NCBI GenBank assembly: GCA_031271405.1
Contig: JAISVT010000063.1
Location: 1-54,925, forward strand
DNA length: 54,925 bases
Reading direction: 5' to 3'
From: Candidatus Endomicrobium macrotermitis
Lineage (GTDB): Bacteria; Elusimicrobiota; Endomicrobiia; Endomicrobiales; Endomicrobiaceae
The notes under the pieces were generated by a model. That model was not told where the DNA came from, made no database searches, and saw only the letters and a list, made by a program, of their open reading frames with translations. The number at the start of each line of letters is the position of its first letter. The stretch's first letter is position 1. The position numbers and the translations under genes are program-made. Positions 10,328 through 45,060 of this stretch are shown here, one piece after another.

Positions 10328-11332
10328 ATGTTAAAAAAACTGTTTATTTTACCGGTTTTGTTTGTTGTTTGCGCATCAGTGCGTATTAACGCTGAAATTG
10401 AGGTTGACGATCAGATCATCATAACGAAAAGCCGCATACAGGATAGAAAAATAATCATAACCGACAACCTCGGCAAAGACATAAACTACAGAATAAAAGG
10501 CATATGCTTTTCCCCGGATATCGACGGCGAAATTTTTTATGAAACATATCTCAAAGATATACCTCTTATAAGGGGCGCGGGCGCGAATTCTATAAAAACT
10601 TACAGGCCGCTCGGCGCGTATAATGCGCGCGGCGAATTTGATCATCAAAAAACCCGCGACATTCTAAATGCTTTTTTTAAAAACAAAATAACGGCAAGCG
10701 TCGGTTTTTCTTATGAAGATATGGCTGAAGGCGGGCTGATGGAGCAGTATCTCGCCGCTTTTGGAAATCATCCGGCAATATTAATGATAGTTCTCGGAAA
10801 CGAATATAATTATCATTACGGCGAATGGTTTACCAAAGAGGAGTGGCTCTCGCAGCTTAAATCCGCGGTCAAAAGGGCAAAGAGGCATATCCCGAACAAA
10901 ATAATAGCGGTTGCGCACGGCGAAATGCCGTCGAAACAAGAGTACAAAGAATATACCTCTGCCGGCGCGGATTTCATTATGATGAATATGTACAGGGGCT
11001 CGAATTTCGGTTTTTCCAAAGACAATTGGAATAAAATTTCAAAGCATATGCCCTGGGGAGTAAGCGAATTCGGCAGAAGTTCTTTGGACGCAGCCGGAAA
11101 AGACACTTCAAAGCTCCAGTCGTCCGAACTGCAAACTCTTATCCGCAGTATGGACCACGGATATTTGTTTACGCTTGTTGACGACCCCGCAAAAGGCGAT
11201 ATGGAAATTTCGCCGGTAATAGGCAGGGAAGACGCCATGGGCATTTACCATAAAGACGGAAAACCCAAAATAGCCGTGAAAACCGTAAAAACCGAATACG
11301 ATAAAATCCCCGGAGCGGTATATATAGATTGA
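10328..11332 (+). CDS. Exported clan-A glycoside-hydrolase-like protein
   Basis: A 334-residue protein with a signal peptide (MLKKLFILPVLFVVCASVRINA) and a TIM-barrel resembling GH2/GH5-type catalytic domains. GNHPAILMIVLGNEYN carries the probable acid/base Glu159 (Asn-Glu pair), and WGVSEFG carries the probable nucleophile Glu247. It is clearly homologous to residues about 780-1076 of the giant protein encoded downstream. Shared blocks are GNHPAILM, NxxRTYRP-like and IxGxxFSPDIxGE. The start has AAAGGAG. Likely substrate is a beta-linked glycan in the periplasm or at the surface, unknown. Catalytic assignments come from motif position only. Confidence 0.75.
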   Translation: MLKKLFILPVLFVVCASVRINAEIEVDDQIIITKSRIQDRKIIITDNLGKDINYRIKGICFSPDIDGEIFYETYLKDIPLIRGAGANSIKTYRPLGAYNARGEFDHQKTRDILNAFFKNKITASVGFSYEDMAEGGLMEQYLAAFGNHPAILMIVLGNEYNYHYGEWFTKEEWLSQLKSAVKRAKRHIPNKIIAVAHGEMPSKQEYKEYTSAGADFIMMNMYRGSNFGFSKDNWNKISKHMPWGVSEFGRSSLDAAGKDTSKLQSSELQTLIRSMDHGYLFTLVDDPAKGDMEISPVIGREDAMGIYHKDGKPKIAVKTVKTEYDKIPGAVYID

Positions 11333-11943: not shown

Positions 11944-14900
11944 ATGAATTTAAAAAAAGCGATTTCGATTTTTACCGCAGCGTCTTTTATTTTTACTCTT
12001 TGCGGGCAAGCATTTGCCGCTTCGCCGCAGTCCGCTTCAGATGTTGGCGTTGAAAAAGTCAATATAGAAAGGATTGTTCTGTTTTCTGATAAATTCGGGA
12101 CAGTGACTCAAGTTCAAAATTACGGCAGCCCGCAGGTTATAGTGAATATTCAGGATTTACACAGCCATCCGCAGGTGCAAAAGAATATAGCGGCAATTAT
12201 TGAAAAACTGGACAGTAAATATAGCATAAAAGAGGTCTATCTTGAAGGCGGCAGCGGGAAAATAAATGTTTCATGGCTTAAAAACCTGTATGATATAAAC
12301 AAAGGCTTGATAGAGCAAATGCTCGAAAACGGAACTCTCAGCGGTACTGAATATTTTTCGGTTTTAAACGGGAAAGATAATATTTTCGGACTCGAAAATA
12401 AGGAAATCCACCGCAAGAATATAGAAAGGCTCGGAAACATTTACGAAAACGAAGCAAAGTATGCGCAAAAACTTGGGAAAATAGAAAACGAGATAAGCTA
12501 TCTTTTTAATAAGTTCACTGGAAGCGACAATAAAAAGTTTGCGGCCTTAACCGCAAAATATCGCTCAGGGAAAATCGACACGGCAAAATATTATGCGCAC
12601 ATGCTTTCCGCCGCAGAAGAGATTAACTCAAACCCTGCCGGGTACGGAAATGTTTTTACGATAAACGCTGCGGATTTTTCCGAGATACGTAAAATCGACG
12701 CGATAGAAAAATTATCCAAAAAACTCAACATAAAAAAGGTAAATGCCGAACTTTCGGCATATTTATCGCAGCTGAAAGAAAAAACGGATTTTTCCGAATA
12801 TAAAACCATACTTGAAAATACCGATAGATTTCAGGATATCGGTATGGCCGCAAAATACATAAGCGCATACGGCGTGGACGGCAAAAAAATGCCCCAGCTG
12901 GAAGCTTTTGTTTATTTAAACGAACTTAATACGAATGTCAATCCCGTAGACCTTTACGAGCAGGAACAGTCTCTGCGTGAAAAAATAACGTCCGCTTTTT
13001 CCGTTAACAAACAGGAAAGCGAAATATCTTTCCTGAAGGATTTTTATCACTATTTTGAAAATTATTTTACAAACAGCCTTACCGCCGCAGATCAGGAATA
13101 TTTTTCGGAAAAGTTTAATGTTTTCGCCCGGATTTACGGCAAATACGCAGCGGTCGACCATATCAAAGAGATGGAAAAAGAAATCTCGTTTTTTGATTCG
13201 TACTATTCGGCAAACAATAAAAGAAATGAAATTTTTATCAAAAACATAGAAAAAAACTCAAAACTTGTTTCCGGAAAAGAAAATTCATCAAAATCCGCAT
13301 CCGAGACGCTTGACAAAGCGTCTGAGGTCATAGTCGTAGTTACCGGAGGCTATCACAGCCGCGGGATAAATGAAATTTTGGACGGAAAAAAAATAAGCCG
13401 CGTGACAATAACCCCTAGAGTTTCCGGCGGCATAGAAAATGCGCTTGTAAATTACAGACAGATTATAGTAGAGCAAAGCAGATTTTTTAAAGAAGCGCTT
13501 GCATTCGCGATTGCTTCACAAATGCCGGCATTGGGCCAGTTTACGATTATCATGAGGACAGCAAACGAGCTTTTGAAAAAGGCTGAGTTCAGTGAAGAAA
13601 ATATAAACATTTTAAGACAGGAACTTGAAAAAATTACCGGAGAAAAAATTGAAACGGCCGGTATAGGCACGGATAACATTTTAATGAAGTTTTCTTCCGG
13701 TTATGAAATGTCCGTTTACAACTATAACGATGCAATGCAGATAAATCCGATGCCCGCTTCTGCCGATCTGAGTTTGAGAGCATCGGACTTTATCGAGACT
13801 TTTGCCGGAAAAGCGTTTAATTTATCGTCACTTGCGAACATTCTGAACGAAGACACCTATGAATTCTGGAAAAAAATTTTTTACGCCGCGACTTTTAACG
13901 GAAAAATATCTTACTCCGACGGTTTTTATCCCGCAGTTGAAAATTTAATGTCCGCGCGCGGTTATGACAAATATTCCGAAATCGACGGGTTTCCGGTAGA
14001 GCAGTTGGCCAGAACCCCGGAAGCATTTCAAATGGCGGTAATAAGAAAACAAATTGAGGCTGATGCGGATCCGGCGGTAAAAGCCGCGCAGAAGCGGTCT
14101 TCCGAAGGATTTGAGAAATTTAAAAAGATTGCAACAAAAACGATAATGGGCGTGCTGCTCGGGGTAAGCCTGCTTTCCTTGGCAGCCTGCGGAGACACTT
14201 CTAAAGTCGAAGAACCTGTAGTCCCCGTATATACGATTGAAACGAGGCAGGAGCAGGAACCTTCCGACGTTCTTTCCATACAAAAAGCCGAGATTGTCGA
14301 TAGGAAGCTTGTGGTTACAAACCAAAACGGGCAAAGAGTTCAATATATAGGAAAAGGCATAGCGTGGGGGCCGGATATCCAAGGAGAGACCTTTTACGAT
14401 AATTATGTGCAGGATATTTCTTTGATGCAGTCTCTAGGGGTTAATTGCGTAAGGACTTACCGTCCGGTCGGAGAATTTAACGGCATTAATATGGATGTTG
14501 ACAAAACAAAGGAAATGCTCGATGCCTTTCAAAGAGCTGGGATACAATTGGTTATCGGGTTTTCCGAAAGAGATATGCGAAATACCGTGATGAAACAGTA
14601 CTTGGCGGAGTTTGGTAATCATCCGGCAATACTTATGTATATGTTCGGTAACGAACAAAATATGTATTACGATCTTTTTGAGTATCCAGATGAAATGGAA
14701 TGGCATAAAATTGTCAGAGAAGCTCTTCCGGTCGCGAGAGAACGCACCGACAGACCTATAGGAGTAGTCTTGGGAGATTATTATAATCTTAAAGACGAGG
14801 CAAAATGGTATGAAGCCATGGGTTTAGACGTAATTCTTCTCAATGCTTACAGAGACGGTTCTACCGTGGAGATAGAAAATGAAGTTCTTGAAGTGACAGA

Positions 14901-17900
14901 ACGCGTTCTTGTGGGCATCGGAGAAACAGGATTAGGGTCCGTCGGTCCGAAAGAAGAAGATTGGTCTCAAAAACAAGCTGAAATAATAGGGGAAGTAATT
15001 GACGAAATACAGAGCAGCAGCAAATTCGGATTTGTTTTTATGCTAAGGGACGATCCGTATAAAAGAGGCGCTTGGGATGCCGGCAAAGAAAGTTCATTCG
15101 GCGTTATAAGCAATAATCCCGTTGAAAGAAAGCCGGCCGCGGGAGTTGTGGAAGAAAAATATTCGGAGATACCTGATTCTATTCCTTTGGATAATTCCGG
15201 CCTCAGTGTTTCTTTGCCGAAATCTCCGACGTCAAGTCCGAGTCTTAGCGCGATAGCGAGAAATATAATAGTCTCAATAATGACCTTTTTCATTATGTTG
15301 TCGTCCGCTGCGTGTTCTTCGGAAGCCGCCGTCAGCGAGCAGAGCGTCTTGCCGGATGAGAAGTCGTCTTACAGCCGACAGGAAACGGTTCCGTACGCAG
15401 ATCCATTTACCGGCGTTTTGGAAGAAAAAGCATCATCGCCGGTTGTCAGGCTTCAAAGCGCTGTCGGTACCATAGATACTTATATAAAATCAAGCCGCGG
15501 CAATAAAGGGATACTCAAATATGTCGATACGGATAATCTTATCGATGCTTACAGTTGGGTAGCGACTCCTCTTCCCAGTCTTGCCTCTTCTTCCTGGGGA
15601 ATATTCAACTATGCCGTAAATGCCGGCGCGTCCGTAAATCCTTTCGATATTTCTCGGCCCAAAACACTGCCTTCGGGCATTGACAATGCATATATCCGCG
15701 GAGTCGCCGATGAATTTTTACGGGGGAACCCGCTTCCCTCAAGTTTTTACGGGGACACAAGCATCATAACCGACCCTGCGCAAAAATTGATTGCCGAAGA
15801 AGGCGTAATAATTTACGATATGGCCGTTCTTATGAAGGCGCTGCTTTTATTTCCCGAAGAAAATAAAGATTTAATAGAAAGAATGTTTAATGCTTTGGAG
15901 CAACACAAAGACAGCAATACCTCTAATGCGGATTTTGTGTACGGTGCGGGAGACGAGAATCATTCGGTTATCCCTATCGGGCAGGGCTTTTATTGGAAAA
16001 CGCTGAACATAAAGGGCGGTGTGGTTAAAGATCAGTACCAGCCTATTACCGGAGAAAACGCGTGGCTTGCAAATGCTTATGTAAGCGCGGCACAAGCGTA
16101 TAAAGGCTCTGAGTTGGGAAACAGAATGTATCGGAGATCCGCAGAGTTAGCCAAGGCCGTTCTTGCTTTGCAGGCGGAAAACGGCGGTATAAGAATGGCT
16201 CCGGATGATGTAAAATCGCATTATTCCTATATGGGTACGGATTTTTATCAGACCCTCTCTTTTGAGAATAACGTTTCGGCATACTCTTTTTTAAAAAACC
16301 TTCATGATTCTACGGATGACAAAGAGCTTAAAGGGAAACTTGCCGACGCGCTGGTTAAACTGGAGAATTTTTTGTTTTCAATGTATGACGGACAAGCCGG
16401 ATATTTTCTCAGCGGCGTAAATTTAACCGATAATACGGTAAACAGAAAATTTGCCACAGACTGCCAAACTTGGATTATTTCCGTTTTCGGGGCAGAACGG
16501 TTTAATGAAATAATGAAAGAAAGATTCGGCATAGACAATGCGAGCGTTGAGTTGTTGTTAAGAACGCTCGAGTTGTCCGGTGTTGAAGAAAACGGACAAT
16601 ATATAGGGCTTGATTTTACAGAAAGGGCGGAATATGTGAGTTTCGAATGGACATTGGGCTGGATGCTTGCCGTAAAAGAAGCAGTTGCATATTCTCCGGC
16701 TCCTGCTGCAGCTGCCGAGGCAGAAACATCTCCTCAATTGCAAGAACAAGTTGCTGAAAATTCCTGGAGTATAAAAGTAAACAGGAACACCACCTACAGC
16801 GGAAGCAATTGGAAAACCGCTGTGTTTATTAAAGCGGCGGATAATTTGGAATCAGGCAGAAGTGTTGCGGGCGGCGATTCGGTGCGCATATATTTTGACA
16901 ATACGTCGCCGTTTAATAAAAATAACGATTTAAGATTGCTTGTGCGTATTGTGTTTGAAGGCGGCAAAACGGTGTACCTTTCAAACAGAGACGATGTTAT
17001 CGCAAGTAAAGCCGGGACTCTGAAAATGGACATCAAAGACGGTTATTTCGAATTTATTATTCCGGAAGGCGAAGGCGGAATAATATCCGAATTTGTCGTT
17101 GATTGCGGAGAAACCAGCTCTCAATACACTGAAGAGCGGCAGTTAAATCCCGATAATTCCGGAGACCCGCGGTTTAACGGTTTGGAGGTGACGGCTTCGG
17201 CTGCAGCCGCGCAAGATTCAACGCTTGAACTTCCGTCAACATCCGCATATCTTGATAAAAGAGGAATTAAAAGTGAAAAAGCGCGCGCAGAAATTGCCGC
17301 CAAAAGAGAAAGGCTTTTGACAATTTTGATGTCAAAAGAGAGATTTGTAATGATGCACTATACAAGAAAAGAGAGGGCGTTAATCGGAGAGTATTTAGAC
17401 GCTACAAGAGTTGTTTCCGATGAAAATAAGGAAATAATAACCGAACTTTTAAGAAATATTGAAATTTCCGAAGACGCTGCGGGGTCAATTAAAGCTTTTA
17501 ATATGGCCGTTTCAAAAATGGAAGACGTATCGGACAGAGATAAATCCGTAATATTCGACATTGCCGTAGACACGGCAAAAAGAGGCTATTTAAACTCACA
17601 AAGCGGATATTTTCTGGAAAGTTTTTACGGCAGAAAAGTTGCCGGAGAAATGAGAGACGCCGATATTCCGCCGTATCTGCACGAATTAATAAATGAATTC
17701 AAGAGACAGTCAAAAAGGCCTGGAATAATAAAAGCCGGTTCAAATGAGGAAGTTTTGAATATTCTCACGGGGACTTATGAAACAAGAATGCAAGGAATAA
17801 CAAATATAAAGGCGCAGACCCGCAAAGGTTTTATAATCGGCATTATAGGCGGTATAATCGGAACGGCCGTGTTGTTTCTGCTTGCGGCAGTTACCGACAG

Positions 17901-19845
17901 GGCTATCAATTTGGAGTGGTTTCATTATGATTACGCGCTGCCGGCAATTTTCCGCAGTTTTATTTTCAATCATACGTTTTTATGGGGCGGAATTCTTACG
18001 GTGATCACAGCCGTTGCTTCAATAGCTACGGCGTTTAAATATAATTTTGAAGCGCACGTTTTGCACAATGTTAAAAACAGCTTTGCAAAACTCGATATTG
18101 TAAGCAGTTTGCTTGCCGGCAGAAGCGGCACTCCTGCCGTTACCGCAAACGTAACTTTAATAACGACGCAGGATTTTCAAAAAAATGCCGCTGTTAAGCA
18201 AAAATTCGGGACAACTGCCGTAATAGGCGAGTCCGGTTTGAATATTTCCGTTTATGTGCGCGATACTAACAACATTTACGAACAAAAACCGACAGGACTG
18301 AAAACACAGAAGGGAGACAGAATAGCTTACCGTTACACTAAAGACGGCGGACTGGAGTTTTCGCCGTCGCTCGCAAGCGGAGCTACCGTACGCGAAATCT
18401 CGCGGGCTTTGCAGGAAAATCCGGATATGCTTATAGAACATATCAAAATTGCTCTTAAGGAGCAGGGTTTGCCTGCCCCGGAAAACCTAGAACTTAATAT
18501 TGTTGAAATACAGTCCGATAAACGCGATGCCCGTCCCGCAAAGGGGTTCGGACTGACGGACGGACGTTACGATACCGTTCTTGCCGAATATGAATCCGAC
18601 CAAAACGCGCCGTATTTTGAGTATAATCCGTACGGAAATCCGAAATTTAATTTGGGCGATACCGATTTAGGTAATTTTGATTTGACTGAAATCGACGATT
18701 ACAGAACCATAAAAGAAGCGCAGGGCTGGATGTTTGCGCAGAGGTATCTTGTGTTTTTGGATAAAATAAACAATGCCGCGGAATTTGAAGCGTATTTGAG
18801 AAACAATGTTATAGGAAAAGCGACAAACGGAAACATTATAATAAACGCTGAACTTGCGGCGGAGTTATTTTCTGCAAATAAGCTTGGCGCGGTGCTTTCC
18901 ATGTTAAGAAATGACGGCATAAGCGTTATGACAGAGGACGGAGCGGCGGAAAATATAACAAGTTTGTTTGACGGCATTTTTTACCGCGAAGAAGGAATTA
19001 TCAGAAGCGCTTTGGATTCTTCTTATGAAAAGCAAAAGGCCGTAAAACTCGATAACGGTGAGACATTTGAGCAGGATATAGAAAAAGCAAAAGGCAATGT
19101 TGTCATTTACGAAAGCGCTTACGAGCAGGCTTATAAAAATAGCCGCGACGGGTTTATGAAATATGCGGCCTCTTTATGGACTACGGCTGCAGGAATAATC
19201 AGGATTTCTTTAGGCGAACCCATAACGCCGGAAACTTCCGCCGAAACGGCAAGGAATTTCAACATAGAGAAAGTATTGAAAGCGTTTCCCGGAATTACGG
19301 TTGACGAAGTTAAAGAATTAAGCGTGGATTTTTATTCGGGAGAACGGCTGTATTCCGTGCTTAGAAATTCCAGATTCGGCGTAAATAATATGGCCGGCAG
19401 ATATTTGCAGGAAATAGAAAGAAGCCTTGATGAGCCGCAGCAGCGCATAGAAGCAATGAAAGGTTTTGCCGAAGGAATGTTCGAAAAACTTCTTGTCGCC
19501 GCCGAGCTAAATAAAAACGGCAAAACAAAAGGGTTTAACAATAAAAAAATCGAAAGATTTTTCGGCGAAACTCTTGCATACAGGTACGGACTTAAGCGTT
19601 ATTCCCCTGACGCGAATATAGATATTGACGAAATAATGAGAGATCTGAATTCGGCTAAACAGGGCGATTATTATGAGAAAATGCTTCAGATTGCCTCCAA
19701 AAAAGCAAACGCGTATCCTTTAGTGGCGGAAGCCATGTCCGAAATGATAATTCTTTACGGATATACGCCCGATATAGATTCGCAAGATATGACTCCTTCA
19801 TTGTCAGACTCAAGAATTTATTCTAAAATACTGTCAGCGGCATAA
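11944..19845 (+). CDS. Giant mosaic exported protein (2633 residues) with glycosidase domains and internal lipoboxes
   Basis: Signal peptide at residues 1-26 (FTLCGQAFAA). Residues about 40-490 resemble the TraB/ChaN-like domain seen at the start of giant Omnitrophota/Elusimicrobia proteins: QDLHSH (His73, His75), YLEGGSG (Glu101), VTGGYHSRG (His471). Residues 733-749 form a complete lipoprotein signal ending LAAC (Cys749). Residues 780-1076 are a clan-A glycosidase-like barrel with Glu904 (GNE) and Glu994 (GETG), homologous to the 10328 gene. Residues 1107-1124 form a second lipoprotein signal ending SSAAC (Cys1124). Residues about 1173-1583 look like an (alpha/alpha)6-barrel glycosidase-like domain. 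Residues about 1606-1736 are a beta-sandwich. Transmembrane helices lie near 1962-1985 and 2010-2031. The last 600 residues are unknown. Ribosome site AAGGGGA. The domain calls are by eye. Confidence 0.8.
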   Translation: MNLKKAISIFTAASFIFTLCGQAFAASPQSASDVGVEKVNIERIVLFSDKFGTVTQVQNYGSPQVIVNIQDLHSHPQVQKNIAAIIEKLDSKYSIKEVYLEGGSGKINVSWLKNLYDINKGLIEQMLENGTLSGTEYFSVLNGKDNIFGLENKEIHRKNIERLGNIYENEAKYAQKLGKIENEISYLFNKFTGSDNKKFAALTAKYRSGKIDTAKYYAHMLSAAEEINSNPAGYGNVFTINAADFSEIRKIDAIEKLSKKLNIKKVNAELSAYLSQLKEKTDFSEYKTILENTDRFQDIGMAAKYISAYGVDGKKMPQLEAFVYLNELNTNVNPVDLYEQEQSLREKITSAFSVNKQESEISFLKDFYHYFENYFTNSLTAADQEYFSEKFNVFARIYGKYAAVDHIKEMEKEISFFDSYYSANNKRNEIFIKNIEKNSKLVSGKENSSKSASETLDKASEVIVVVTGGYHSRGINEILDGKKISRVTITPRVSGGIENALVNYRQIIVEQSRFFKEALAFAIASQMPALGQFTIIMRTANELLKKAEFSEENINILRQELEKITGEKIETAGIGTDNILMKFSSGYEMSVYNYNDAMQINPMPASADLSLRASDFIETFAGKAFNLSSLANILNEDTYEFWKKIFYAATFNGKISYSDGFYPAVENLMSARGYDKYSEIDGFPVEQLARTPEAFQMAVIRKQIEADADPAVKAAQKRSSEGFEKFKKIATKTIMGVLLGVSLLSLAACGDTSKVEEPVVPVYTIETRQEQEPSDVLSIQKAEIVDRKLVVTNQNGQRVQYIGKGIAWGPDIQGETFYDNYVQDISLMQSLGVNCVRTYRPVGEFNGINMDVDKTKEMLDAFQRAGIQLVIGFSERDMRNTVMKQYLAEFGNHPAILMYMFGNEQNMYYDLFEYPDEMEWHKIVREALPVARERTDRPIGVVLGDYYNLKDEAKWYEAMGLDVILLNAYRDGSTVEIENEVLEVTERVLVGIGETGLGSVGPKEEDWSQKQAEIIGEVIDEIQSSSKFGFVFMLRDDPYKRGAWDAGKESSFGVISNNPVERKPAAGVVEEKYSEIPDSIPLDNSGLSVSLPKSPTSSPSLSAIARNIIVSIMTFFIMLSSAACSSEAAVSEQSVLPDEKSSYSRQETVPYADPFTGVLEEKASSPVVRLQSAVGTIDTYIKSSRGNKGILKYVDTDNLIDAYSWVATPLPSLASSSWGIFNYAVNAGASVNPFDISRPKTLPSGIDNAYIRGVADEFLRGNPLPSSFYGDTSIITDPAQKLIAEEGVIIYDMAVLMKALLLFPEENKDLIERMFNALEQHKDSNTSNADFVYGAGDENHSVIPIGQGFYWKTLNIKGGVVKDQYQPITGENAWLANAYVSAAQAYKGSELGNRMYRRSAELAKAVLALQAENGGIRMAPDDVKSHYSYMGTDFYQTLSFENNVSAYSFLKNLHDSTDDKELKGKLADALVKLENFLFSMYDGQAGYFLSGVNLTDNTVNRKFATDCQTWIISVFGAERFNEIMKERFGIDNASVELLLRTLELSGVEENGQYIGLDFTERAEYVSFEWTLGWMLAVKEAVAYSPAPAAAAEAETSPQLQEQVAENSWSIKVNRNTTYSGSNWKTAVFIKAADNLESGRSVAGGDSVRIYFDNTSPFNKNNDLRLLVRIVFEGGKTVYLSNRDDVIASKAGTLKMDIKDGYFEFIIPEGEGGIISEFVVDCGETSSQYTEERQLNPDNSGDPRFNGLEVTASAAAAQDSTLELPSTSAYLDKRGIKSEKARAEIAAKRERLLTILMSKERFVMMHYTRKERALIGEYLDATRVVSDENKEIITELLRNIEISEDAAGSIKAFNMAVSKMEDVSDRDKSVIFDIAVDTAKRGYLNSQSGYFLESFYGRKVAGEMRDADIPPYLHELINEFKRQSKRPGIIKAGSNEEVLNILTGTYETRMQGITNIKAQTRKGFIIGIIGGIIGTAVLFLLAAVTDRAINLEWFHYDYALPAIFRSFIFNHTFLWGGILTVITAVASIATAFKYNFEAHVLHNVKNSFAKLDIVSSLLAGRSGTPAVTANVTLITTQDFQKNAAVKQKFGTTAVIGESGLNISVYVRDTNNIYEQKPTGLKTQKGDRIAYRYTKDGGLEFSPSLASGATVREISRALQENPDMLIEHIKIALKEQGLPAPENLELNIVEIQSDKRDARPAKGFGLTDGRYDTVLAEYESDQNAPYFEYNPYGNPKFNLGDTDLGNFDLTEIDDYRTIKEAQGWMFAQRYLVFLDKINNAAEFEAYLRNNVIGKATNGNIIINAELAAELFSANKLGAVLSMLRNDGISVMTEDGAAENITSLFDGIFYREEGIIRSALDSSYEKQKAVKLDNGETFEQDIEKAKGNVVIYESAYEQAYKNSRDGFMKYAASLWTTAAGIIRISLGEPITPETSAETARNFNIEKVLKAFPGITVDEVKELSVDFYSGERLYSVLRNSRFGVNNMAGRYLQEIERSLDEPQQRIEAMKGFAEGMFEKLLVAAELNKNGKTKGFNNKKIERFFGETLAYRYGLKRYSPDANIDIDEIMRDLNSAKQGDYYEKMLQIASKKANAYPLVAEAMSEMIILYGYTPDIDSQDMTPSLSDSRIYSKILSAA

Positions 19846-41995: not shown

Positions 41996-42337
41996 TTACG
42001 ATATGGCTATGGAAATTTGCGAATAAATTTCTTTATCGTTTTTTATCGTTATGTTGTAAAAACCGCCGCTTTCGGTTAAAACCGCGGCAATCGCGGCGTC
42101 CGGCAAAACCGGCTTTACAAACTTTACCTTTTTTACTTCTTTAAGAACCGCATCGTTTTTGTTTAAAAAATTTTTTACGCAAAACAAAGCTATTTCTATC
42201 TGGACTATTCCGGGAAGAACGGGATTATCCGGAAAGTGCCCCTGAAAAGCCGTAAAATCTTTGTCTATAAAAAACTCAAAAACGCCGCCGTTGCGGCTTT
42301 TGAAAGAATCGGCTATGCAGCCGTTTACGTTTTTCAT
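41996..42337 (-). CDS. FabZ/ApeI-like 3-hydroxyacyl-ACP dehydratase
   Basis: A 113-residue hotdog protein with the dehydratase motif FQGHFPDNPVLPGIVQIEIA, which supplies the catalytic His. The shortened C-terminal half fits small ApeI-like dehydratases. The start is at 42337, in ATGA overlap with the stop of the MMPL gene; five extra upstream codons are open but unlikely. It removes water from 3-hydroxyacyl-ACP to give trans double bonds, which are kept in polyene chains. Confidence 0.88.
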   Translation of the reverse strand: MKNVNGCIADSFKSRNGGVFEFFIDKDFTAFQGHFPDNPVLPGIVQIEIALFCVKNFLNKNDAVLKEVKKVKFVKPVLPDAAIAAVLTESGGFYNITIKNDKEIYSQISIAIS

Positions 42338-45060
42338 ATTTTCGTTGCCCACAATACCGGCTCGTTCTGATAAAAGAAGAACAGTTTCCCGCCGATATTT
42401 CTGATATTCTCGTTCGTTTCGTTTATGAACAATTCTTTGAAAAATTCCGCAAACCGTTCCACCGCGCTTTCGGGCATGCGCGGAATATGAAAATAAACGT
42501 CCGTCCCGCCGTCTTTTTTTATTTTCATATCCTGAATTTTAACGCCCAAATCGTTCATAATTATCGCCCTTACGCCGTCTTCTTCTTCAACTGCTATGGC
42601 TTTAAAGGGCAGGCTGTCCATATACGAGCCGTAAAACATTGAGGTTTTATTTCCTGAGGATGCCGAAAAACCGGGCTTCACGGCGTTATAACGTATGTCC
42701 CCGCCGGTTTTGGCGCATGCCGAAAACGATACGCTTACCGCTAAAACCAAAAATAAAATTTTAGCCGCAGTTCCGCTTTTGGAATTTCTCAAAAAAGCGG
42801 GGAGGATAAAAACGCTTACGAGTATTGCCGTTAAAATTCCTGTAAAAACCATAAATCCGATTATAAACAAAACTTTATGCTGCGCCGCCATAAGCGAACC
42901 GAAACCTATAAGCGTCGAAAGCGCCGCTATTGCCGCCGCTTTCAAGGGATGAAGTTTTGAGTCTCCTTTTATTTTATAAATTATAAATACCGCGTAGTCT
43001 ATGCCGAGCCCCATAAGAAGCGGTACCGCAAAAAGGCCGAACAAATTTACTTCTATTTTTAAAACCGCCGCGGCTGTGAAAAAGACGCATACGCCGCATA
43101 TTACCGGGACAAGGCTTAAAACCGCAAGTTCGGCGTTTTTTAAAAATAACGCCAAAACCGTAAAAGAACACAGCAAAAGAACAATCATTATTTTATAAAA
43201 ACTCGAGCTTACCCCGTTTATTATTTTTTCCTGAAGGGTATAGTTGGATATTGCCGAAGTTTCTATGTTTTGCGCGTTGACAACTTTGCCGCCTTTGGGC
43301 AAAATGTTTGTAAAAGCGTACCTGCCGTTTATTTCTATGACGGGGTTATAAAACCTTTCCAACCCGAAGGCTTCGCCTTCCTTGACAGTTCCGGCTTCTA
43401 AAAATTTATAAAAGTTATCGAAAACGCCCGGTTTAACGCCGTATTTTTTCGAAGCTTTTTCAACTTCTTTTTTTACCGCCGCGATTTTATCCGGCGTCCA
43501 AAACTTTTTCCACATTAAAACGTTTTGTTCTTTCGTTTTTTTGTCCGGAAAAAGCCGGTACAGCTTTAAAAGGCCTTTGTTTTCGCGCGAAATTATGCCG
43601 TTGTTTTCAAGAGCTTCTTCTTTCGTGTTTCCGAAAACGAACAAAAACTCGTTATTATTATACGCGTTTCCGGTGATTTGTTCAAATATTTCTTTGTCTT
43701 TTTCAAATTCGGCGGACACGGTGTTTAGCGAATCCAAAGAAATGTCGAATTTTACGTATTTGAAACAGATTGCCGCGGAAGCGAATATCAGCAATAAAAT
43801 GACGATCGCGGCAGACGGAGAAAGTTCGGTTCTCCGGATCGTTTCTCCGCCGTTTCGCTCTTTTTCGCTGCGGCGGTTTGCACGGCAGTCAAAAACCAGC
43901 GGAGCGATAAAAAAGGCCGTAAGAAAAGCCGCTGTCAGCCCGGCGGCGCAAAAAACCGCTACTTGCCGAAACACGCCTATGTCCGAAAGCAGTAAAAGCG
44001 AAAAAGTGAGAATTGAAGTCAGCGCGCTTACCGCGACGGGCTTGAATATTTTACGCATGGAATCAAAGCGGTCTTTTTCTTGTGAAACTTTCAAAGCAAA
44101 ATAAGCGTACACGCAATAATCTACCGAAAGCCCCATAAGCACCGCGCCGAAACCGACGGTAATTCCCGATATCCCGTTAAAAACGAAACTCGTTATTACC
44201 GCCGCGGCGGCTATAACGGCCGGCGGAGTAAAATAAATCAAAACGGCTTTGCCGTCCCTTAAAAAAACAAAAAATAAAACCGCCATTAAAATCAAAGATA
44301 TTGCCGAAATCTTTTTTATGTCGCGGACTATGAGTTCGTTATTTTCAAGGGCGTATCTGGGCGCGCCGGTAAAAAACGCGTTTACGTTTCCGGGAAGCGA
44401 ACTTTTGATTTCATCGAAAGCGGCTTTTAATTTTTTTGAAAAAGCCAAATCGAGCGCGTTTTTCGGATAATCGAATATAAGCAGTATTTTTTTGCCGTTA
44501 TCCGAAGATATAAAGCCGCCGTCCGCTTCAAAAGAGTTTGTAACATCGAGGTTTTTAAGCTCTTCCGCAAAAACCGTAAGCAGGCCGGGCGGATCGGCCG
44601 TTACAAAATCCCTGAAAAACATCCCTCCGGGAGAAAAAGCCCGGCTAAAATTCTCTTCGATATTTGAGGCGATAACCTTTTTATCGAGAAGAGCTTCGGT
44701 TTTCTTTTGCATGTCTTCGTTCCAGATATTCGGGGCAAAATGATAGTACGACAGCAAAAAATCTCCGCCGGCTTTCGGGGAGCGCAGGTTAAGTTCGGTA
44801 TTGTTTTCCAATGCCTGCGAAATCGTTTGGGCCGCGTTTGACGAAACGCCGCCGTCATTGCTTTCTACCACTACGAAAAGTTTGTTTGAAAGGGGAGAAT
44901 TTTGAAAAAGGGCAAGTTCCGTTTTCAGGCTGTCGGGCAGCATTTCGGAAACGTCTTCTTTGAACTTTGCTTTTGAAAATAAAACCGCGAAAACCGCCAG
45001 CGTTGCGCATACGGCGGCGAGATAAAGTTTTTTATGTCTGAAAATGAAAGAATAAAGCAT
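42334..45060 (-). CDS. MMPL/RND-superfamily exporter fused to a lipoprotein-like tail
   Basis: A 908-residue inner-membrane protein. Residues 1 to about 760 are the two-fold MMPL repeat. Each half has one helix, a periplasmic loop and five helices, with the GFGAVLMGLSVDYCVYAYFAL and LMGLGIDYAVFIIYK signatures. Residues about 765-782 then read KILFLVLAVSVSFSAC, a complete lipoprotein signal with Cys782, followed by a 126-residue soluble tail. In aryl-polyene clusters the MMPL exporter and a small DUF3261-type lipoprotein are separate, so this looks like a fusion. It probably moves the finished polyene lipid toward the outer membrane. Confidence 0.88.
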   Translation of the reverse strand: MLYSFIFRHKKLYLAAVCATLAVFAVLFSKAKFKEDVSEMLPDSLKTELALFQNSPLSNKLFVVVESNDGGVSSNAAQTISQALENNTELNLRSPKAGGDFLLSYYHFAPNIWNEDMQKKTEALLDKKVIASNIEENFSRAFSPGGMFFRDFVTADPPGLLTVFAEELKNLDVTNSFEADGGFISSDNGKKILLIFDYPKNALDLAFSKKLKAAFDEIKSSLPGNVNAFFTGAPRYALENNELIVRDIKKISAISLILMAVLFFVFLRDGKAVLIYFTPPAVIAAAAVITSFVFNGISGITVGFGAVLMGLSVDYCVYAYFALKVSQEKDRFDSMRKIFKPVAVSALTSILTFSLLLLSDIGVFRQVAVFCAAGLTAAFLTAFFIAPLVFDCRANRRSEKERNGGETIRRTELSPSAAIVILLLIFASAAICFKYVKFDISLDSLNTVSAEFEKDKEIFEQITGNAYNNNEFLFVFGNTKEEALENNGIISRENKGLLKLYRLFPDKKTKEQNVLMWKKFWTPDKIAAVKKEVEKASKKYGVKPGVFDNFYKFLEAGTVKEGEAFGLERFYNPVIEINGRYAFTNILPKGGKVVNAQNIETSAISNYTLQEKIINGVSSSFYKIMIVLLLCSFTVLALFLKNAELAVLSLVPVICGVCVFFTAAAVLKIEVNLFGLFAVPLLMGLGIDYAVFIIYKIKGDSKLHPLKAAAIAALSTLIGFGSLMAAQHKVLFIIGFMVFTGILTAILVSVFILPAFLRNSKSGTAAKILFLVLAVSVSFSACAKTGGDIRYNAVKPGFSASSGNKTSMFYGSYMDSLPFKAIAVEEEDGVRAIIMNDLGVKIQDMKIKKDGGTDVYFHIPRMPESAVERFAEFFKELFINETNENIRNIGGKLFFFYQNEPVLWATKI

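Follow-up and report, generated by a model that had tools for sequence, protein, structure and literature searches.

Captured lipoprotein genes with retained internal signals in an Elusimicrobiota megaprotein, a candidate for a polyprotein processed by signal peptidase II

What becomes of a lipoprotein signal that lies hundreds of residues inside a protein chain? The question is raised by an open reading frame of Candidatus Endomicrobium macrotermitis (assembly GCA_031271405.1), which we analyzed within the 54,925 nucleotides of contig JAISVT010000063.1, referred to here as the window. The frame is uninterrupted through 2,633 codons (Table 1), and its architecture class recurs in independent assemblies. 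A preliminary description had read it as a signal peptide followed by two internal lipoprotein-type signals running to Cys749 (LAAC) and Cys1124 (SSAAC), and all three were recovered by hydropathy scan and inspection of the sequence. Both internal signals, LSP1 (KFKKIATKTIMGVLLGVSLLSLAAC) and LSP2 (IARNIIVSIMTFFIMLSSAAC), show a basic n-region, an uncharged hydrophobic core, and a lipobox cysteine, after which a polar tether begins. They share the n-region, core, lipobox cysteine, tether, and enzyme domain with ordinary Lgt/LspA lipoproteins but differ from these in position: neither lies at the N terminus of the precursor, and the signals are found 749 and 1,124 residues into the chain. In each of the eight genomes tested, the genes for LspA and Lgt are neighbors. 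The protein has six cysteines only, namely, one in the signal peptide, those of the two lipoboxes, C835, C1507, and C1721. No match was obtained when the whole chain was compared with Pfam. Beyond the features of the preliminary description, the chain has two further TM segments, a conserved N-terminal module A, and a C-terminal tag, and the window holds a second ORF with an internal lipobox (Table 1).

Table 1. Positions in the window of the 2,633-residue frame, its parts, and two related frames
Feature	Positions	Strand	Basis
Whole ORF, 2,633 aa: signal peptide, module A, LSP1, B, LSP2, C, D, E, C-terminal tag	11944..19845	+	
N-terminal signal peptide, aa 1-26 (..GQAFA/AS, cut at the slash)	11944..12021	+	Sequence
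Module A, aa 27-560, N-terminal module common to the giant family	12022..13623	+	Alignment; AF2 model
LSP1, internal lipoprotein-type signal, aa 725-749; Cys749 codon 14188-14190	14116..14190	+	Hydropathy scan, lipobox
Tether-like polar linker after Cys749, aa 750-784	14191..14295	+	Sequence
Module B, aa 785-1090, TIM-barrel glycoside-hydrolase-like	14296..15213	+	Weak Pfam GH2_C match, homologues, tree
LSP2, internal lipoprotein-type signal, aa 1104-1124; Cys1124 codon 15313-15315	15253..15315	+	Hydropathy scan, lipobox
Tether-like polar linker after Cys1124, aa 1125-1164	15316..15435	+	Sequence
Module C, circularly permuted piece, aa 1165-1242	15436..15669	+	Comparison with relatives
Module C core, aa 1243-1585, (alpha/alpha)6 toroid	15670..16698	+	Homologues, fold of G030 relative
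Region D, aa 1600-1730, possibly carbohydrate-binding	16741..17133	+	Inference
TM segment in region E, aa 1964-1981	17833..17886	+	Hydropathy scan
TM segment in region E, aa 2012-2031	17977..18036	+	Hydropathy scan
C-terminal tag SKILSAA, aa 2627-2633	19822..19842	+	Family-wide [IM]LxAA-like C terminus
Stand-alone module B paralogue, 334 aa, SPase-I type signal, a short way upstream	10328..11332	+	Homologues, tree
Second internal-lipobox ORF, MMPL transporter fused in frame to a lipoprotein (KILFLVLAVSVSFSAC); Cys782 codon 42715-42717	42334..45060	-	

The claim that a glycosidase-like module stands behind each internal signal held for both. Module B gave a weak Pfam match to Glyco_hydro_2_C (E = 4.5e-4, below the gathering score) and retains, as read from the sequence, GNE and GETG motifs that belong to an active site of the clan GH-A type; these features point to the TIM-barrel glycoside hydrolase type. 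Module C was assigned through its relative in genome G030. The predicted structure of this relative (pLDDT 85, pTM 0.88) matched AGE epimerases, GH76, and GH88/105 at E values of about 1e-6 and TM scores of 0.5 to 0.6, and it has the toroid fold of the (alpha/alpha)6 sugar-enzyme superfamily. Compared with this unpermuted form, module C of the 2,633-residue protein is circularly permuted: its first piece (residues 1165 to 1242) sits C-terminal of the core in G027, G030, G017, and G004. The alignment used for folding was made without the permuted pieces, which misalign. Region D had no family match in Pfam.

The host chain belongs to a family of megaproteins, characterized by a signal peptide, module A, a variable payload, cysteine depletion, and a C-terminal tag, that has not been described before. 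The occurrence of module A extends over Endomicrobiales and, at greater distance, to other Elusimicrobiota (61 of 285 genomes), with approximately 20 copies in the genome of the window and about 20 or more megaproteins of the family per genome. Nearly all copies start ORFs of 1,000 to 11,800 residues. The signal-peptide consensus KKxxxxxTxxCFxxS is conserved across 65 aligned rows, and the invariant residues of the module are D71, H73, Q79, E101, G102, E136, N424, R427, G468, G469, and H471; among them, D71, H73, E101, and GGxH471 may belong to an active site or a metal site. The 2,633-residue protein carries the signal peptide, a module A with H73, E101, and GGxH471, and the terminal [IM]LxAA-like tag. 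Structure prediction, which had been proposed for each segment, covered module A as well as the G030 relative of module C; module A folded confidently (AF2 model, pLDDT 89) and found no significant fold match. Pfam, a PDB sequence profile, and Foldseek placed it in no known family at a significant level; EreC and ChaN appeared only among insignificant matches (E = 1.0 to 3.4).

The tag was present in all 34 complete giants that were checked and in none of 114 other ORFs, so that it cannot be regarded as a common protein ending. When the window's own genome was scanned, giant-type frames were the only long frames that ended in it; in more distant families, where 9 of 14 further ends match, the tag has partly degenerated. 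It is similar to tmRNA tags or to the C termini recognized by PDZ-type proteases (Prc/Tsp). The giants are also 5.6-fold depleted in cysteine (0.23% versus 1.28%), which suggests an extracytoplasmic location and makes a retained lipobox cysteine notable.

The payloads include metabolic enzymes. In genome G003, a giant of 5,383 residues (G003:C18; L087 472-16623) with signal peptide and tag combines TIM, GAPDH, enolase, a phosphoglycerate-mutase-like domain, and class II aldolase and keeps active-site motifs of GAPDH (SCTTN) and enolase (SHRSGET); the same genome has a normal enolase gene elsewhere. A giant of 3,723 residues in the genome of the window (G000:C21; L061 704-11875), with only two cysteines, carries UDPGP-PGI-PGM and lies directly downstream of a normal pgi gene. 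PGI within long frames recurs in many Endomicrobiaceae genomes, and normal stand-alone enolase and PGI genes exist beside the payload copies. Capture of a neighboring gene was rejected as the general origin of payloads, since a flanking paralogue was found for 2 of approximately 18 giants (PGI and module B). Four other giants (L066, L091, L093, and L094) have TM regions with EExxxR-type motifs resembling CPBP intramembrane proteases; of these giants, L066 was compared with Pfam and gave no match. Many genomes of genus g8 (e.g., G259, G267, and G278), which is probably Endomicrobiellum, a genus of intracellular symbionts, either have no module A or have copies disrupted by stop codons. The giants thus seem to be tied to the free-living state.

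Comparison with relatives from termite guts (Endomicrobium and Endomicrobia MAGs) and from the rumen indicated where the internal signals came from. At the locus linked to parA-parB, the order A-signal-B-signal-C of the window protein corresponds to A-signal-B in G002, which is of the same genus as the genome of the window, and to A-signal-C in G015 and G027. Further orthologues, for which full synteny was not seen or is different, read A-signal-B (G023) or A-signal-C (G030, G017, and G004). The same junction after module A therefore leads into B in some relatives and into C in others. The preliminary description had proposed looking in related genomes for the modules as separate lipoprotein genes. 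Such genes were found for B, with a stand-alone lipoprotein in G001 (..GLFSC) and two such loci in G002 (..LTVSC and ..LSAAAC), and not for C, of which no stand-alone copy was found in 60 genomes searched. Stand-alone B also exists as an SPase-I secreted protein in the genome of the window, G003, G032, and G023. Moreover, a different giant with NDK and GNAT domains (G002:C5) contains a signal followed by B (..LSATAC), and in the tree the stand-alone lipoprotein G002:C40 (ILSAAAC) of the same genome is the sister of its B (support, 98/95). Giants have thus taken up lipoprotein genes along with their signals. With separate B lipoproteins in G001 and G002 and signal-plus-B units inside unrelated giants, the in-frame fusion of lipoprotein genes raised in the preliminary description, signals retained, is well supported by sequence comparison. 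The same comparison supports signal-plus-B and signal-plus-C as mobile cassettes.

The ends of the captured signals are informative. Ten junctions follow module A, the orthologous ones not being phylogenetically independent; eight carry a lipobox (LAAC, TSC, SSEC, IAAC, FSAC, TSAC, VSAC, and PISC), and the remaining two have an SPase-I end of the AxA type (HSLAGA and NIAIAQ). HSLAGA belongs to G017:C33 and NIAIAQ to a partial homologue in the same genome, while another G017 copy has PISC and then an acidic, proline-rich tether. A lipobox or AxA end is kept despite diverged linkers around it. Cleavability, and not mere hydrophobicity, has thus been kept, which suggests selection for cleavable signals. 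Among 267 internal TM-like segments of approximately 45 related giants, 12 sequence windows (10 distinct signals) held a lipobox. Only 1.5 were expected, and the maximum in 300 simulations run at the cysteine frequency of the giants (0.24%) was 5, so that lipoboxes are commoner than chance. All 10 distinct signals directly precede module B or C. Internal lipoboxes as a rule for the whole giant family were rejected, as they were found only with the B and C cassettes; because most giants are without one, internal lipobox processing is not the general way of the family.

The window also contains an MMPL transporter with an in-frame lipoprotein behind it. The two are fused in the genome of the window, G003, G023, G015, and G001 and encoded by two genes in G002, G004, and G017; the lipobox cysteine is kept in all eight genomes, fused or separate. 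The separate lipoprotein genes of these three close relatives have a signal equivalent to the one in the fusion. MMPL transporters have their C-terminal end in the cytoplasm, and the topology is therefore right for this internal signal. The ORF is part of a gene cluster that also encodes ketosynthases and a thioesterase and that we take to be aryl-polyene-like.

Our preferred reading, for which we see roughly even chances, is that the captured lipoproteins keep signals that LspA still cuts, so that one chain would yield several lipoproteins. According to this model, lipoprotein genes would have been captured, in frame and with their signals, into a megaprotein made of a signal peptide, module A, a variable payload, and the [IM]LxAA-like tag. 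The internal signals would still act as such: Lgt would lipidate Cys749 and Cys1124, and LspA would cut before both. A single translation product would then give an N-terminal module A part and two membrane-tethered, sugar-active lipoproteins, one being B, ending in the LSP2 membrane segment, and the other C-D-E. The B and C enzymes may act on gut polysaccharide outside the inner membrane. Processing is favored by the retained lipoboxes, the switch to SPase-I ends in two relatives, the tethers, the presence of LspA and Lgt, and the MMPL-lipoprotein fusion. Topology is a difficulty for it. As module A appears to reach the outside by means of its own signal and no TM segment intervenes, LSP1 would by default be oriented N-out/C-in, which is wrong for Lgt and LspA; LSP2 would then point in the right direction, yet B would be left in the cytoplasm. 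Two signals also speak against cutting by LspA, with Glu at -1 in G015 (SSEC) and Pro at -3 in G017:C246, both of which are unusual for this enzyme.

Alternatively, the captured signals may have stayed as uncleaved membrane anchors, so that the modules would alternate along a single unbroken chain with several spans. In length and hydrophobicity the segments suffice for crossing a membrane, and region E supplies two further TM segments. We nevertheless regard such anchoring as rather unlikely, as it leaves the retained lipobox cysteine or AxA end and the lipoprotein-type tethers unexplained and would make B (or C, in single-signal orthologues) cytoplasmic, although stand-alone B has export signals. 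It is more doubtful still that the signals are fusion relics that have no present role, with the chain crossing the translocon whole or the segments being tolerated. A fusion origin is clear, and the giant copy of B in G003:C2 has no signal in front; relics, however, would hardly persist in divergent orthologues in two cleavable forms or keep a lipobox cysteine in otherwise cysteine-poor chains.

The two remaining explanations concern how separate proteins, or a single frame, could come about otherwise. Translation might initiate internally just before each signal and give separate lipoproteins without cleavage, and G027 does have an ATG 24 codons before the cysteine. This is very improbable, as no convincing start codon with a Shine-Dalgarno sequence was found before any of the ten internal signals, two of which have no start codon whatever within the stretch scanned. 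An assembly or frameshift artefact uniting separate genes could be suspected in a draft genome of 64 contigs, but similar fusions are seen at this parAB-linked locus in assemblies made independently, and G001, a single-contig genome (1.6 Mb) of the same genus as the genome of the window, carries the MMPL fusion as well; we rejected this explanation on these grounds and give it next to no chance.

Processing by LspA may be one instance of something broader. It is conceivable, if on balance doubtful, that the exported precursor megaproteins of free-living Endomicrobiales constitute a family-wide bacterial polyprotein system, in which dedicated processing releases or displays the payload outside the cytoplasm. 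Module A would perhaps be an EreA/ChaN-type enzyme in such a system, the tag would mark the other end of the precursor, and entire sets of glycolytic enzymes as well as the lipoproteins with their internal signals would be part of the payload.

A known precedent is FbcH, the cytochrome b/c1 polyprotein of Bradyrhizobium and related bacteria, in which an internal signal peptide is cut and two mature proteins result. Like FbcH, the 2,633-residue protein is a single bacterial ORF with an internal signal, cleavage being established there and proposed here. FbcH differs in being cut by SPase I, in having an upstream partner that ends in the cytoplasm, so that the topology is right, and in consisting of two parts, whereas the protein described here is a megaprotein with lipoprotein modules and SPase II-type signals. 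A search of the available literature for internal lipoprotein signals or bacterial polyproteins found none. To our knowledge, no candidate for a bacterial polyprotein processed by SPase II would precede the proteins with persisting internal lipoprotein signals described here. Cutting by LspA inside a chain is simple to test, and the MMPL-lipoprotein fusion could be tested in a cultured relative such as E. proavitum.

As far as the available text of the two reports goes, Elusimicrobiota are among the bacterial phyla richest in proteins of more than 5,000 residues, no COG being assignable to their huge proteins (PMC11573180), and these, like the giant ORFs of Omnitrophota, are giants with TM segments (PMC11573180 and PMC10066038). 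For the published Elusimicrobiota proteins, the same text mentions no common N-terminal module, C-terminal tag, internal lipoprotein signal, or metabolic-enzyme payload (PMC11573180 and PMC10066038). With the family described here, the so far unexplained huge proteins of Elusimicrobiota acquire a shared anatomy of start module, end tag, and captured enzymes, and this anatomy makes their export, processing, and function testable.
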